Positions 31,224 through 37,919 of a stretch of DNA of 64,000 nt are shown here, piece after piece (position 1 is the first letter of the stretch; every line of letters starts with the position of its first letter). Origin of the DNA: Candidatus Meridianibacter frigidus (GTDB taxonomy: Bacteria; Vulcanimicrobiota; Vulcanimicrobiia; Vulcanimicrobiales; Vulcanimicrobiaceae); contig QHBJ01000030.1 in NCBI GenBank assembly GCA_003243975.1, positions 1 to 64,000 of the forward strand, written 5' to 3'. A program made the position numbers and the translations under genes. The notes beneath the pieces were generated by a model. The model was not told where the DNA came from. It made no database searches and saw only the letters and a list, made by a program, of their open reading frames with translations.

Positions 31224-32411
31224 TTACGATGCCTGTGCGGGGGCGGGCTTTAAGATCTCGCCGTGGACGACGGCGCCGCCCACGATCGTTCCGATTACCT
31301 GGTAATCCTGATTCCAAATGGAAAGGTCGGCGCGCATGCCGCGCGCGATGGTTCCCATGTCGCGCTGCAAGCCAAGCAATTGCGCCGGCGCGCGCGTAGC
31401 CGCTATCACCGCGCGCTCAAATGGCAATTCGGTGTACTGCATGTAGTTGCGAACGGCCTGATCGATGCGCAGCGCACTCCCCGCGATCGTTCCGTCTTGC
31501 GCCCGCACCAGGCCGTCTACAATTCTATACCCCTTCCCAAAGGGCGGCATATTGTCGGTTGCCAGAACCACCCGGTCGCCCAGAGTGCGGTACAGAATAT
31601 CGATCATGACGGGTGAGACATGGTGCCCATCGCAGATGACCTGGACCATCGTGCGCCGGTCCTGAATGAACGCCGCCAGTATCGAGGGATCGCGGTGATC
31701 CAGCGGCGGCATCGCGTTGAACGCATGGGTGAGCGATCGGAACCCCATACCGATCGCCAGCATGCCTTCGCTATAGTGCGCGGCCGTGTGCCCAGCAGAG
31801 CATACGATTCCACGATCGGTGAAGAAGCGCGCGGCCTCTGCGGCTCCTTCGATTTCCGGCGCGAGCGTAACCATCAGCAACGTGCCGGCGCTGGCATCGT
31901 ACAGAGCCTGCGCTGCGCCATGACCCGCTGGCAGAATCCACTCGGGGCGGTGAACGCGGCGAAATTTCGGGTTAAGAAATGGTCCTTCGAAGTGAATGCC
32001 CAGACATCGTGCGCCGATGGCCGGGTTCTCCTCCAGTGAATGAGCGGCTTCTGCGATCTCGCCGGCCGCATGCAGCATGGATTCGAATGGCGCGGTCATG
32101 ACGCCCGCCAGGAATCCGGACGCACCCTGCCGCGCGTATTCAACGGCTGCAACCGGTACTGCGTTGCCTTGATCGCGATTAAAGAGAAACTCGCCCGCGC
32201 CGTTGGTGTGAACGTCGATCAACCCGGGAGCGACCGTGGTATCGGGAGGTAGCCGGTACTCGCAATGCCCGTCGCCGGAAAGGACTTCGCGAATGCGTCC
32301 GTCTTGCACAACCAAGCGGCCGAACGCCGTGCCTCCATCGCCAAAAGCGATTCGAGCAGGCCCTAGAGAGTAACGATCAGGCGTGGGAGATTGCCTCCTG
32401 TGAATAGGCAC
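31224..32411 (-). CDS. nagA: N-acetylglucosamine-6-phosphate deacetylase
   Basis: A 395-residue amidohydrolase-fold enzyme converting GlcNAc-6-P to GlcN-6-P and acetate. Blocks correspond to NagA: PGLIDVHTNGAGE, metal-ligand Glu in GIHFEGPFLNP, His in SAGHTAAHY and LTHAFNAM, and catalytic Asp in LATDNMPP. The GTG at 32411 is preceded by AAGGTGG at a proper distance. An AGGAGG just inside the frame at about 32390-32395 has no standard start after it and was judged incidental. It follows the dynamin-like gene by 21 bases on the same strand. Confidence 0.88.
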   Translation of the reverse strand: MPIHRRQSPTPDRYSLGPARIAFGDGGTAFGRLVVQDGRIREVLSGDGHCEYRLPPDTTVAPGLIDVHTNGAGEFLFNRDQGNAVPVAAVEYARQGASGFLAGVMTAPFESMLHAAGEIAEAAHSLEENPAIGARCLGIHFEGPFLNPKFRRVHRPEWILPAGHGAAQALYDASAGTLLMVTLAPEIEGAAEAARFFTDRGIVCSAGHTAAHYSEGMLAIGMGFRSLTHAFNAMPPLDHRDPSILAAFIQDRRTMVQVICDGHHVSPVMIDILYRTLGDRVVLATDNMPPFGKGYRIVDGLVRAQDGTIAGSALRIDQAVRNYMQYTELPFERAVIAATRAPAQLLGLQRDMGTIARGMRADLSIWNQDYQVIGTIVGGAVVHGEILKPAPAQAS

Positions 32412-32432: not shown

Positions 32433-35153
32433 TCACGGTTTACTTTTGCGCCCGAGTAGGCGCGAAATGAAGTTGTTGGGCTGCGTAATCGTGACCGCGT
32501 GCACGGAGTTGGCGGTACTGGCGGCGGCAGCGCGTTCCAGCCGTTCCAACCGCTGCATGTGCGCCTCACTATCTGCGCTGAGGGTAGCAACGAGTGCATC
32601 TAATTCGTTCCAGCCAGCCGGTGCGCGTCCGTCGCGCTTCGCTTGCGCGTACTCCAGTATTGAAACTGTAAAGACACGTTTGGGGCTGATCTTGCGCTGG
32701 GCCAGATACTCTTTTGCCAGCTCGACCACCCCGCGACGCTCGGCCGGGGTTTCATTGTCGGCGATCGTGTGGACAAATTGCATGGGCCGTTCTTGAGCCG
32801 CCACGCGTTCGAAAAGGTCCAGTTCGCGGTCCGAGAGCTGGCGCGAAAAAAGGCAGAGCATTTCGCTCGCATTCGAAGCTGCAACCAGCGCGATCTCTTC
32901 CGCGTGTTGCGCGCCCGAATCGAACGCCGGAACGTGCACCAACACCAGTTCACGCGGCAACTTCCAAGGCGTTTCGATAAGTACCGGATTTCGCGTGGCT
33001 TCCTCCAATGCAGATTCGATCTCCACCTCGTTCCATACGCCGGAGGGAGCGAGCGCATACGCTCGTTCGGCGGGACCGTAACGCACGTGCACCGGAAAGG
33101 CGATGGCGCCGGCAACTTCATCCGCGAGAACGCGTGAGCCGGCGATCGCGTTGATCAAACTCGACTTGCCGCGCCGCAGCGCTCCCAGCACGGCGACGCG
33201 CCATCGCGTCGGCCGCAGGCCTTTCCCGTACGCTTGCCGGTCGAAACTTGCCTGATCGTGTGCGCGCCGAACGATGTGAGGCCCGGCGTCGGCAGCAGCG
33301 ATCTCGGGTTCTCGCTCGAAAAAACTCTTGGCCGTTCGCCGCATCTGCTCGCGCTTTTCGCCGAGCGTTTGAACGGTTTTCGCAAGTTCTTCCCGCAACT
33401 GGGCAACGTCCCCGCGCTGGTGAGCTGCTCGCGAGCGCTCGATCGACCCGAGCTGGATGTCGCGCATTTGTCTGGTAACTTCTTGGAGGGCGGAGCAAAA
33501 AGAAGAAGCAATGGTTTCCAACTGTACGGCCACATCGGTTGTGAAAGCCATCAAATCGGCGCGCATATGTGGCAGGATTTCGGAGCGCAGGTCTGCGGTG
33601 AGCTCGCGTTTCATGTATGCGCCGGACGGTTTGCCGGCGAACCGTGCTCCGATATCGGAAACGAGATTCGTGCCGGGGCCGGCGATGGCTTCCAGAACGA
33701 TGCTCGCCGCAACCGCCGCATCCACGTCGCTGCTCCACAACCCGCTTGCGCCCTGAGCCCCGAAGGCTACGGCGGCGGCGTCGTTGAGCGAGAAGCGCAA
33801 AGCGGCTTCCTGTCGCGCGGCATGCTGCGCTTGACGAATGTCGTTAAGCGCCTCCGCGGAGAGCCGCGTTGCGAACTCGCCGACGACCTCCAGGAAGAGG
33901 CGGTCGATGAGGATGTTCAGGCGCGCGCGATCGCGCACTCGAGCGATGTCCGCCGTGTCAAGCGCCTGCGTAAGTTCGGCCTGCATCTCCCTGCAGAGAA
34001 CATCCGCCTGCTCGGCGGCGTGTTGACGGCGCGCGGCCGCACGCCCGGCCACACCGTTAGATTGAATACGCAGATTTTGTTCGAGCGCTTCGATTTGCGG
34101 ACGCGCGCTGGCCTCGGCCTGCTCGAGTTCCGCGGTATCTCGAGAGAGCATCTCAACGTCTGCCTGCAGTCGCGCTACGACATGGTCGAGGATCACCGCG
34201 CTCTGATCGTACGCGCGCCGCAGACGCGCACGTCCGGTCGTGGCAATCAACGAGGCATCCAGCGCATTGACGAAGAGGTCGAAACGGCTTTGGGCGACCA
34301 GAGCCGGCGATTCTTCGAGTATCCCGCGAACGAATGAGAGAGCGGAGAGTGCGTAGACGTACGTGCCGGGCGCATGTACCGCTGCCAGCGCAGCGATGCG
34401 ATCGCGGGCGTGCTCCCAGTCGGCACGCCCGTCGTCTTGCACCGACTCCCATAAATCGATCTTGGTTTGGACGATGAAGATCGAGTCCAGATGCCCGCGT
34501 ATGATTCCAAGGAACGAGGCGTCGCCTTCGGTGAACGGCTGCTGCGTATCGATCAAATAGAGCACTGCGTCGGCGCTGGGCAAGAATTGAAGGGTTGCGC
34601 GGCGGTGAGCCGGATTCACCGAGGCCAAACCGGGCGTATCGGCTATTGTAAATCCGCGTTGAAGAAAGGGCGAATCGACGCGGACCATTACACGTTCGGG
34701 CACATCCCGCTGCTCTTGCGTCGCATCATGCAGCTTCCCGGTCTCACCGCGTCCCACGGAAATGAAACGCGAAAGGCGGTCGAGCGCAACACGCTCCGTC
34801 CGTCCGCCTGAGTAGTGCGCGTAGGCTTCGTCCTGCTCACCGAAATCTAGTTCGGTGATCGCCGCCGTCGATGGGTTGATATCGGTTGCCAGCAACCCGG
34901 CGATTCGTTTTGCGTTCCCGGCTTGCTCGTACCAAAACTTGCCCAAGAGCGCGTTTAGCAGGAACGACTTGCCGCTGGAGAATTCGCCCACTACGGCTAA
35001 GACAAACTTGCCGCGCTCCAGCCGGGTGCGTGCCGCGACGATCGCTTCTTTTGAACCGGCGTCCGCGAGCAGTTCGACTTCGCGCATCGTCCCCGCCAGC
35101 GCGTCGCGCGCGGCTTCGTAACGGCGCATTGCATCTTGGTCGACCGTAGTCAC
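32433..35153 (-). CDS. bacterial dynamin-like protein with two GTPase-type P-loops
   Basis: A 906-residue dynamin-superfamily protein, probably acting at membranes. The N-terminal GTPase is canonical: P-loop GEFSSGKS (56-63), switch Thr in NPSTAAIT, DTPG (172-175) and TKID (230-233). A long helical stalk-like region (about 290-640) follows, with a short hydrophobic Ala/Gly-rich stretch that could be a paddle. A second G-domain starts near 652 with P-loop GALRRGKSS (657-665). Its G3 (VPAFDSG) and G4 (HTIADNE) positions are degenerate and no second stalk follows. B. subtilis DynA (about 1190 residues) is a true tandem; this is a shorter variant. GTG start at 35153; ATG at residue 9 is an alternative. 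Confidence 0.8.
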   Translation of the reverse strand: MTTVDQDAMRRYEAARDALAGTMREVELLADAGSKEAIVAARTRLERGKFVLAVVGEFSSGKSFLLNALLGKFWYEQAGNAKRIAGLLATDINPSTAAITELDFGEQDEAYAHYSGGRTERVALDRLSRFISVGRGETGKLHDATQEQRDVPERVMVRVDSPFLQRGFTIADTPGLASVNPAHRRATLQFLPSADAVLYLIDTQQPFTEGDASFLGIIRGHLDSIFIVQTKIDLWESVQDDGRADWEHARDRIAALAAVHAPGTYVYALSALSFVRGILEESPALVAQSRFDLFVNALDASLIATTGRARLRRAYDQSAVILDHVVARLQADVEMLSRDTAELEQAEASARPQIEALEQNLRIQSNGVAGRAAARRQHAAEQADVLCREMQAELTQALDTADIARVRDRARLNILIDRLFLEVVGEFATRLSAEALNDIRQAQHAARQEAALRFSLNDAAAVAFGAQGASGLWSSDVDAAVAASIVLEAIAGPGTNLVSDIGARFAGKPSGAYMKRELTADLRSEILPHMRADLMAFTTDVAVQLETIASSFCSALQEVTRQMRDIQLGSIERSRAAHQRGDVAQLREELAKTVQTLGEKREQMRRTAKSFFEREPEIAAADAGPHIVRRAHDQASFDRQAYGKGLRPTRWRVAVLGALRRGKSSLINAIAGSRVLADEVAGAIAFPVHVRYGPAERAYALAPSGVWNEVEIESALEEATRNPVLIETPWKLPRELVLVHVPAFDSGAQHAEEIALVAASNASEMLCLFSRQLSDRELDLFERVAAQERPMQFVHTIADNETPAERRGVVELAKEYLAQRKISPKRVFTVSILEYAQAKRDGRAPAGWNELDALVATLSADSEAHMQRLERLERAAAASTANSVHAVTITQPNNFISRLLGRKSKP

Positions 35154-35168
35154 AGTATGAGCCGGGCT

Positions 35169-36518
35169 TTAGGCCCGAATGAGCGCGAGCGCCTCGTCGC
35201 GATGTTTCTCCATCAACTCTTTTTTGTCGCCTTCCACATTGAGGCGCAGCAAGGGCTCAGTGTTCGATGGCCGGATATTCATCCACCACTGCGGGTAGGA
35301 AACCGTCAGCCCGTCGAGGTGATCGATCTGTGCGTCTTGATAGTGCGTCTGTATCTCTGCCAGTTTGCCGGGAATATCTTTCACGGTGCTGTTGATCTCA
35401 CCGGAACGAAAGCGGGTGTCGATCGGCGCAATAACTTCGCTGGGCTTCTTTCCGGCCTCACTGAAGAGTTCCAGGCATTCCATCAGCGCGATCATGCCCG
35501 AGTCCGCAAACCAATTGTCCTTGAAGTAAAAGTGGCCGGAGTGTTCACCGCCAAAAATCACGTCGTTGTCGCGCATTACTTTCTTGATAATCGAATGCCC
35601 GACTTGGGAACGAAGCGGCTTTCCGCCCGCCCTTTCGATGACCTCCGGAACGCTACGGCTGCAGATCAAGTTGTACAAGATCGTCGCCCCGGGATGGCGC
35701 TTCAACGTGTTCAGTCCGACGATGGCTGTCACCATGTCGCCGCCGATGAGGTCGGCCTTTTCATCCACGATGAACATACGGTCGGCATCGCCGTCGAAGG
35801 CCACGCCCAGGTCGCAGCTATATTTCAGTACGGCGGCTTGGAGGTCGCGCATGTTCTCCGGCTCGATGGGGCTGGCCGGGTGATTTGGGAAACTGCCGTC
35901 CAGCTCGAAATAGAGCGGTATTACCTTGCACGGAAGATGCTTGAACACGTGCGGTACGGTTTCGCCTGCCATACCGTTCCCGGCGTCGATGGCGATCGTA
36001 AATGGTTTCACGGCGGCCGCATCGATGAACGAGAGGCAATGCGCGGCAAAGTCTTCTAAGACATCGCGCTTGGTTACCTTCCCGGGCGTGGCGGCGGCTG
36101 CGGGCGCGCTTCCCGAACTGATGGCGTCGCGAATCGCGCTTAGGCCCGTGTCGAGAGAGAGCGCCATGGCCTGCTCGCGCGTGAACTTCATGCCGTTGTA
36201 CTGGGCTGGGTTGTGAGAGGCCGTAATCATCACGCCGCCGTCGTAGCCGTATTTACCGACCGCAAAATAAAGGGCGTCGGTGGAGACCATGCCGATGTCA
36301 ACGACATCGGCGCCGGCCTGCGTGGCTCCCCGCGCGAATGCTTCGAAGAGATTCTGACCGGATGGGCGCATGTCGCGACCCACCGCGACCGTCTTGGCAC
36401 GCAAGAACGCTACAAACGCACGCCCGATTTCAAACGCCACATCGTCATTAAGTTCTGACGGATAAATTCCGCGAACGTCGTAGCTCTTGAAAATCGAGGA
36501 ATCAAACTGCGTTTGCAT
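35169..36518 (-). CDS. manB: phosphomannomutase/phosphoglucomutase
   Basis: A 449-residue alpha-D-phosphohexomutase interconverting hexose 6- and 1-phosphates for envelope polysaccharide. Order of motifs: FKSYDVRGIYP, the phosphoserine loop TASHNPAQYNG, the metal loop DGDADR, the sugar loop GGEHSGH, and the phosphate-binding RPSNTEPLLRL near the C-terminus. It starts 21 bases from the divergent phosphatase gene and lies 15 bases upstream of the dynamin-like gene on the same strand. Confidence 0.92.
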   Translation of the reverse strand: MQTQFDSSIFKSYDVRGIYPSELNDDVAFEIGRAFVAFLRAKTVAVGRDMRPSGQNLFEAFARGATQAGADVVDIGMVSTDALYFAVGKYGYDGGVMITASHNPAQYNGMKFTREQAMALSLDTGLSAIRDAISSGSAPAAAATPGKVTKRDVLEDFAAHCLSFIDAAAVKPFTIAIDAGNGMAGETVPHVFKHLPCKVIPLYFELDGSFPNHPASPIEPENMRDLQAAVLKYSCDLGVAFDGDADRMFIVDEKADLIGGDMVTAIVGLNTLKRHPGATILYNLICSRSVPEVIERAGGKPLRSQVGHSIIKKVMRDNDVIFGGEHSGHFYFKDNWFADSGMIALMECLELFSEAGKKPSEVIAPIDTRFRSGEINSTVKDIPGKLAEIQTHYQDAQIDHLDGLTVSYPQWWMNIRPSNTEPLLRLNVEGDKKELMEKHRDEALALIRA

Positions 36519-36539
36519 GGCCGGGGAAGCTTCGTACCG

Positions 36540-37919
36540 ATGAAAGGCTTTCCCCTTCGGTCGATTTTCAGAAGTGCCGGCACGTTAACTGCGACGGCTA
36601 TCTTGATTTTTGCCCTAATCGTAGCGGTAAGTGGCACTTTCAGCACCCGCGCCGAACTGCACCGCGCTTTCGAACGCGAGATGCGCATCCAGACTGGGCA
36701 ACTCTCCCTCGAATCCCTGCTTAAACTGCAGCTCGACGAGGAGACATCCGTACGCGGATATACCATTACGCACGACGACGCATTCTTGCAGCCGTATTTC
36801 GCCGCAGCCGCAAAATTCAGTCCGCTTGACGCGGGCTTGGGGCCTTTGCTACGCGCGGAGAATCTTTCGCAGGCGAGTGCGGCGCTGGAAGATTTCCGCA
36901 GCGCGCACGCGGCTTGGCACCGCGACGTGGCAGACCCGATCGTGCACTCTCGCGGCGGCCCGCAACTGGATCTCGAAAAGCGCGGGAAACTTCTGATCGA
37001 CCAGGAGCGCACGGATGCCACGGTACTGGAGGCCGCGCTGGCGCAGCGAGCCGATCAGGTTGGTCAGCAGACGCAGGATGCGATCAATTATTCCCTATAC
37101 GTGCGCGCATTTTGGTTGGTGGTTTTCGGGTTGCTCGCGATTCTGTTCAACATGTATCGCTCGCGTTTGAATCGCGAGTTAGAAGAAGAGCGTACCGTGA
37201 CGCAAACGCTGCAGCGAGCTTTTGAAAGCGAGTTTGAACCGATCGAGGGCAGCGATGTTGGCAGCATGTATATCTCCGCCGACGTTCACGCCGCGGTCGG
37301 CGGAGACATGTTTGATTTGTATAAGCTCGGCGACCACCGGGCGCTGGCGCTGATCGCGGATGTGAGCGGCAAAGGCGTCGACGCGGCGGTGCTAACCGCC
37401 TTTATTAAGTTTACCATTCGCGGCATCGCGTTGCGGCGCGGCGACCCGGCGGACATTCTCAGCGAATTCAACACGGCTTTCCCGCGCACCGTGCGCAATC
37501 CGTATTTGTTCGTCTCAATGTTCGTTGCGATTATCGACTTTCAAAAGGGATCGTTGGCTTACGCCAGCGGCGGCCACGATTCGGTCTATCTGCGGCGGTC
37601 GGATGCGAGCGTAGAGCAACTCATGCCGACCGGACCGATTTTAGGCGTGATGGAAGAGGCATTTGAAAGCCGTACCCTCGAGATTGAGGCGGGGGACACC
37701 CTGTTGCTTGCGACCGATGGGCTGACCGAAGCGCGCAACGCGGCGGGCCGATTCTATGCGGACGATGTCGCCTCCATCGTCTCGCAAACGAACGGTACCG
37801 CACAGCACACCGTGGAGGTCCTGACGCAGCGCGTTTTGGAATACACCGGAAACCACATGACCGACGATCTTGCAATGCTCGCGGTTCGTTTCGAAGGGCT
37901 CCCCGCCAAGAATGCGTAG
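36540..37919 (+). CDS. CHASE3-SpoIIE membrane PP2C-type phosphatase
   Basis: A 459-residue membrane regulator. The first helix is at about 15-35, a periplasmic CHASE3-like four-helix sensor spans about 36-185 (with EETSVRGYTIT), the second helix is at about 192-212, then a short coiled-coil and a SpoIIE-type serine phosphatase domain. Metal aspartates are in GGDMFDLY, ADVSGKG, TDGLTEARN and DDLAML. Such proteins dephosphorylate anti-anti-sigma factors in partner-switching systems; no such partner is encoded nearby. The ATG at 36540 follows GGGGAAG. Confidence 0.85.
   Translation: MKGFPLRSIFRSAGTLTATAILIFALIVAVSGTFSTRAELHRAFEREMRIQTGQLSLESLLKLQLDEETSVRGYTITHDDAFLQPYFAAAAKFSPLDAGLGPLLRAENLSQASAALEDFRSAHAAWHRDVADPIVHSRGGPQLDLEKRGKLLIDQERTDATVLEAALAQRADQVGQQTQDAINYSLYVRAFWLVVFGLLAILFNMYRSRLNRELEEERTVTQTLQRAFESEFEPIEGSDVGSMYISADVHAAVGGDMFDLYKLGDHRALALIADVSGKGVDAAVLTAFIKFTIRGIALRRGDPADILSEFNTAFPRTVRNPYLFVSMFVAIIDFQKGSLAYASGGHDSVYLRRSDASVEQLMPTGPILGVMEEAFESRTLEIEAGDTLLLATDGLTEARNAAGRFYADDVASIVSQTNGTAQHTVEVLTQRVLEYTGNHMTDDLAMLAVRFEGLPAKNA

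Follow-up and report, generated by a model that had tools for sequence, protein, structure and literature searches.

What is the function of a second GTPase head at the C-terminus of a bacterial dynamin, when that head has kept its P-loop and exchanged the other motifs on which hydrolysis depends? The question is raised by a gene of Candidatus Eremiobacterota found in a stretch of 64,000 nucleotides from Candidatus Meridianibacter frigidus (contig QHBJ01000030.1 of assembly GCA_003243975.1, positions 1-64,000), referred to here as the window. As currently understood, most bacterial dynamins operate by pairing two unlike heads, and the part that each plays has been difficult to tease apart, since neither can usually be spared. 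According to the available text of PMC6104087, Campylobacter Cj-DLP1 and Cj-DLP2 show GTPase activity only when combined as a heterotypic pair, and turnover stops when the P-loop lysine of either one is mutated; the accessible part of PMC8844932 states that B. subtilis DynA needs GTP loaded in both heads. A natural chain in which one head has been stripped of its catalytic residues yet kept makes the contribution of that head beyond hydrolysis directly testable, and it gives the dynamin superfamily a candidate pseudo-enzyme.

The gene occupies 32433..35153 on the reverse strand, opens with GTG and encodes 906 residues, arranged as an N-terminal working head (residues 45-290, 34284..35021), a helical neck and stalk (residues 291-635, 33249..34283), a second head (residues 645-865, 32559..33221) and a C-terminal linker with a short basic/hydrophobic tail (about residues 885-906, 32436..32501), all read from the same reverse strand. 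Its neighbours, likewise on the reverse strand, are two conserved partners: upstream, a phosphomannomutase/phosphoglucomutase (PMM, 35169..36518) across a 15-bp gap, and downstream, a NagA-like N-acetylglucosamine-6-phosphate deacetylase (31224..32411) across a gap of 21 bp. A frame error or mis-calling of the fused open reading frame was ruled out because the frame stays open in relatives at 46-60% identity. In two relatives (G094 and G015), the gene appeared to be split within the first head, but each break coincides with an assembly gap (NN), which discounts a Leo-like split. Three genomes of one genus, g8, in the same GTDB family (G120, G115 and G111) each have one in-frame stop codon within the dynamin match. 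Promoter and terminator scans across the gene string gave results at chance level.

By every feature tested, namely the G1-G4 motifs and a modelled helical neck and trunk, the first module is a bacterial dynamin-like protein (DLP). Its head contains GEFSSGKS, NPST, DTPG and TKID and matches Pfam Dynamin_N over residues 52-215 (E 4e-27), and across the protein family these motifs are canonical (GEFS[ST]GKS, P[ST]T and DTPG each in 40/40 members, TKID in 42/42). When the whole protein was compared with the PDB, Nostoc BDLP was matched with E 7e-18. In the full-length model (pLDDT 84.3, pTM 0.67), IniA is the top structural match of residues 16-608 (Z 22.0 over 515 residues), BDLP matches residues 5-616 (Z 20.4 over 562 residues), and further along the chain residues 648-868 match the GTPase domain of Fzo1 (Z 19.8). 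Residues 480-498, within the stalk, form the most hydrophobic 19-mer of the whole protein and are a candidate for the membrane-facing tip of a paddle.

The original prediction had placed a G-domain with degenerate motifs, and no second stalk, after this dynamin GTPase and its stalk, and structure prediction bears out that architecture. Taken alone, the C-terminal 267 residues match Dynamin_N with E 3e-8, above the curated Pfam cut-off, as do the 21 of 21 members scanned, and AlphaFold2 models the isolated region with a pLDDT of 90.4 and a pTM of 0.85 as a GTPase fold rather than a non-GTPase one. Its best VIA-align match is the G domain of IniA (residues 33-299; Z 23.8, 2.5 A, 241 residues), followed by Fzo1 and mitofusin-1 at Z about 20. 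Profile comparisons point the same way: almost the entire second-head profile aligns with mitofusin-1 GTPase domains (E 9e-6), 209 columns align with the first head of this protein family (hhalign probability 95, E 5e-8), and the profile also matches single-headed DLPs of the same phylum (E 8e-5 to 5e-9). The second head is thus, as modelled and by profile, a dynamin-type GTPase fold, too divergent for these matches to single-headed DLPs and mitofusin-1 to place its origin. Past it, the model has one helix (residues 851-884), a low-confidence linker and a helix of four residues, and no second stalk.

Counting the window protein itself, there are 44 distinct family members; one of them (L025) is cut off by its contig end before the second head, and second-head motifs were counted in the other 43. 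As had been predicted, the P-loop is intact: it reads GALRRGKS at residues 657-664 (33162..33185), and GxxxxGK[ST] is retained in 43/43. The DxxG motif is lost, also as predicted; where the first head has DTPG, all 43 second heads have HxP[AP], spelled HAPAFDSG in 29 of them and HVPAFDSG in the window protein (residues 740-747, 32913..32936, the first four of which, HVPA, fill 740-743). The predicted loss of the fourth motif holds only in part. At the position of [NT]KxD, every one of the 43 has T[IMLF][AG]D (TIAD at residues 796-799 here, within HTIADNE at 795-801, 32751..32771), so that the lysine is gone throughout and the leading threonine and the aspartate, equivalent to T796 and D799, are retained in 43/43. 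We add that the switch-I threonine is gone as well, replaced by A, V, I, M or L in all 43 (Ile684 in the window protein). A loop spelled FSRQLS at residues 769-774 (32832..32849) has this spelling in 42/43. A full second set of motifs occurs in 0/43 members, and the exchanges have the character of a fixed substitute set, with no sign of drift or erosion across the 43 sequences compared. PMC5593906 defines a pseudoGTPase by a GTPase fold, the absence of at least one G motif, and nucleotide binding or hydrolysis that is missing or altered; the second head, as modelled, has the fold and lacks several of the motifs. Its retained P-loop would fit class ii of that scheme, which binds nucleotide without hydrolysis; loss of the DxxG aspartate may, on the other hand, block the binding of Mg-nucleotide altogether.

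Purifying selection holds the second head about as tightly as the working one. Alignments were made for 21 of 26 loci, L005 and the partial loci L023-L026 being left out, and these 21 members have a mean column identity of 69% in the first head and likewise 69% in the second. Nei-Gojobori dN/dS, estimated for nine pairs of sequences from the same genus, ranges over 0.080-0.149 in the second head, 0.042-0.153 in the first and 0.097-0.315 in the stalk, single values being rough with dS of up to 1.4; the second head lies below the stalk in every one of the nine pairs. Its invariant columns are concentrated in the nucleotide-facing loops (36/69, against 28/161 elsewhere; Fisher p 3e-7), as are those of the first head (45/69 against 40/197), with loop boundaries set by hand from the motifs. 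In the second head, the longest run of invariant columns lies in the loop FSRQLSDREL, of which FSRQLS is a part and which sits where the first head has TQQPFTEGDA. In dynamin, the loop at this place reaches across to the partner head. With its invariant residues clustered in these nucleotide-facing loops, that side of the second head is under selection despite its lost catalytic residues, as would be expected of a docking face. Conservation equal to that of the working head suggests that the second head serves the protein as an integral regulator or partner.

A short basic/hydrophobic stretch ends the chain in 43/43 members, by a loose pattern, and is a candidate membrane-targeting helix; that it contacts the membrane is our guess. 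Its helical moment averages 0.53, only modestly above the 0.41 of shuffled tails (sd 0.10; the truncated L025 is included). Both MinD copies of the source genome end in F-x-x-[RK]-L stretches similar to the dynamin tail, which we take to resemble the membrane tail of E. coli MinD. The two MinD genes are adjacent (locus L178, 642-2292, on contig C22 of the source genome G000) and both score above the TIGR01968 cut-off; their C-terminal tails differ.

The gene is largely a property of one lineage. Within the GTDB family of the source genome, which belongs to Candidatus Eremiobacterota, 53 carriers were counted by hand among 99 genomes, spread over 27 of 38 genera, a carrier being a genome with a hit of at least 99 bits; weaker hits were single-headed DLPs where inspected. 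Among 149 genomes of the phylum, there were no strong hits to the second head outside this GTDB family. The gene is dispensable over evolutionary time, since 46/99 genomes, some of them incomplete, have no such hit. The window protein, searched against its own genome, gave one match only. A scan of the genomes of 84,980 species with two short peptide patterns, which would miss distant proteins with other second-head motifs, yielded 139 confirmed matches, of which 80 were kept (72 loci); most carriers are labelled Candidatus Eremiobacterota, one candidate division WPS-2, two Rhodospirillales and several only 'bacterium'. The same 80 of 139 matches include 26 DLP loci outside Eremiobacterota, some with reading frames truncated at contig ends (as in L077), and in none is the stalk followed by a GTPase domain. 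No relatives were found in viral contigs or in PHROGs, and plasmid and phage records gave partial DLP matches at most, none covering 80% of the query.

The site of the gene is nearly fixed. PMM lies upstream in 40/46 named loci; five of the six loci lacking it start less than 200 bases from a contig end, and the sixth, L066, has no PMM within 6 kb. NagA lies downstream in 39/46, and all seven misses reach a contig end. In genomes without the dynamin gene, PMM adjoins NagA (27 regions, with a gap below 210 bp in 26 and of 857 bp in one). The DLP tree shares 22 of 30 splits with the tree of PMM and NagA, against 0.3 expected with shuffled names. On a 60-row tree of PMM and NagA, built from hand-picked regions with both genes on one contig (33/53 carriers and 27/46 non-carriers), the presence and absence of the dynamin requires 10 changes, and the gene occurs on either side of the midpoint root. 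With trees built by a quick method and no inferred root, gains are not formally distinguished from losses; one ancestral dynamin gene at the PMM-NagA site, vertical descent and many clean losses are the simplest account. Because the dynamin gene is linked to these sugar-phosphate genes, we infer a role alongside them in envelope upkeep. Divergent from the PMM gene, at 36513-37919, is a gene for a CHASE3 sensor with a SpoIIE-type phosphatase, which adjoins PMM in many relatives.

We propose that the second head is a built-in, non-hydrolysing partner that pairs with the working head to switch its GTPase, with a tail that may touch the membrane, and we consider this reading about evenly poised between right and wrong. 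If a partner loaded nucleotide, paired and activated without any turnover of its own, one would expect it to keep the P-loop and the docking face and to lose the residues that position Mg and water, which is the pattern of the second head. The first head would bind and hydrolyse GTP and move the stalk. Through its P-loop and fixed substitute loops, the second head would meet a working head, in its own chain or in an adjacent molecule, face to face and, once docked, would supply the trans half of the dimer, activating or gating hydrolysis without turnover of its own; the tail and the stalk tip would form two membrane contacts. Nucleotide binding without hydrolysis is thus presumed for the second head, as is head-head pairing, the relative placing of the heads in the full-length model resting on a pTM of 0.67, and a cis-acting regulatory role is plausible. 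A bolder picture, which we offer tentatively and think rather doubtful as a whole, casts the second head as a permanently attached activator or timer of the working head. One half of the GTPase pair would be locked while the other hydrolyses, and with a MinD-like membrane tail the single chain would do the work of the usual bacterial dynamin pair, in connection with the envelope sugar metabolism of Eremiobacterota.

The conserved loop face could instead bind another protein, and the second head might be a reused GTPase fold that only docks such a partner or, via its tail, tethers the membrane, with no pairing of heads at all. Catalytic residues lost in 43/43 members and the tail found, by the loose pattern, in as many, with F-x-x-[RK]-L similarly placed near both MinD ends, would suit this reading, which nevertheless has no need for a P-loop intact in all 43 or for invariant residues that cluster on nucleotide-facing loops; we consider it unlikely, if still worth reckoning with. 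It is improbable that the second head remains an active NTPase with unusual motifs, a histidine standing in for the DxxG aspartate and a fourth motif like that of the GBPs, with its lysine replaced and its aspartate kept. GTP hydrolysis by GBPs proceeds with T[LV]RD as the fourth motif, and the P-loop, T796 and D799 are retained in 43/43; against this, the switch-I threonine and the DxxG aspartate, which position Mg and water, are both gone in 43/43. That the protein is a decaying DynA-like tandem, its second stalk lost and its second head on the way out, we find scarcely credible. The two-headed order is like that of DynA and the gene has been cleanly lost in several lineages, but the heads are equally conserved (69% mean column identity in both), the second head has dN/dS of 0.08-0.15 and its substitute motifs are fixed, and the selection data, as estimated from these alignments, already contradict decay.

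A role in phage defence, which the original prediction had entertained, fared poorly, and a Leo-like or DynA-like anti-phage dynamin seems to us very improbable here. In its favour are PADLOC profile matches to LeoA (E 1e-19) and LeoBC (E 5e-17), both profiles without a stated cut-off, and the report, in the available text of PMC8844932, that B. subtilis DynA protects against phage at the population level. The matching profiles, however, are DLP profiles, which we take as generic, and the neighbours are sugar-metabolism and amino-acid transport genes; of ten compared with PADLOC, just two gave hits, both ABC-type ATPases, and none was recognised as a defence gene. A Leo-type partner DLP gene side by side with this one is absent, PMM and NagA being the neighbours and the search of its own genome giving the single match. 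The near-fixed metabolic site, the vertical inheritance indicated by the 22 of 30 shared splits, and plasmid and phage records without a match covering at least 80% of the query also speak against defence.

Returning to the proposed built-in partner, we compared the protein with known systems. DynA (NCBIfam NF052648) is alike in having two dynamin heads in one chain, with an N-terminal module that is a full DLP. DynA is, however, a fusion of two DLPs in which both heads bind GTP (available text of PMC8844932 and PMC6104087), that is, two GTPase-plus-stalk modules with the full motif set in each head, whereas the Eremiobacterota protein has one stalk, one long helix past its second head, and a second head without three of the four motifs; the window protein scores 78 bits with NF052648, whose cut-off is 1600. 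With one stalk and one complete motif set, the Eremiobacterota protein is by motif and model a DLP but not a DynA. IniA (6j72/6j73), whose partner is IniC, is the top structural match of both the N-terminal module and the isolated second head; it is single-headed and encoded in iniBAC (accessible part of PMC6715688), whereas the Eremiobacterota gene lies between PMM and NagA. Cj-DLP1 and Cj-DLP2 exemplify heterotypic activation by a partner head, the logic also proposed here, but they are two separate full DLPs, and both of their P-loops are needed for turnover (available text of PMC6104087). In the cyanobacterial 'HSR1 clade' of DLPs, as described in the accessible text of PMC5827413, the adjacent gene encodes a GTP-binding protein with no apparent GTPase function and a suggested regulatory role; the likeness is one of description, and the genes there are separate. 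The pseudoGTPase domains of p190RhoGAP belong to a different GTPase branch and, in the part of PMC5593906 available, have all five motifs degraded and bind no nucleotide, whereas the Eremiobacterota second head keeps its P-loop. In the open-access literature, we found no description of a two-headed Eremiobacterota dynamin, the papers covered including one on LeoABC (PMC4159319), and no paper joining 'pseudoGTPase' and 'dynamin superfamily'; 'pseudo-GTPase' with 'dynamin' and 'bacteria' returned only unrelated work.

Other architectures were seen among the dynamins inspected. A Ruminococcaceae dynamin of 1060 residues (locus L101, 4576-7755) has a degenerate head, at about residues 117-284, ahead of a normal head and stalk, in the opposite order to the window protein. 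A Sandaracinus dynamin (locus L077, 1663-4947) has an N-terminal extension of roughly 700 residues, probably helical, with a weak TPR match. In the same GTDB family as the window, four loci (L183, 1-9269; L184, L186 and L191) have single-headed dynamin-like genes beside one or two MutS domain V genes, recognised by PF00488 in L183 (E 1e-18 and 1e-19) and by P-loop pattern only in the other three, and a conserved MutS-like/dynamin gene cluster is possible.
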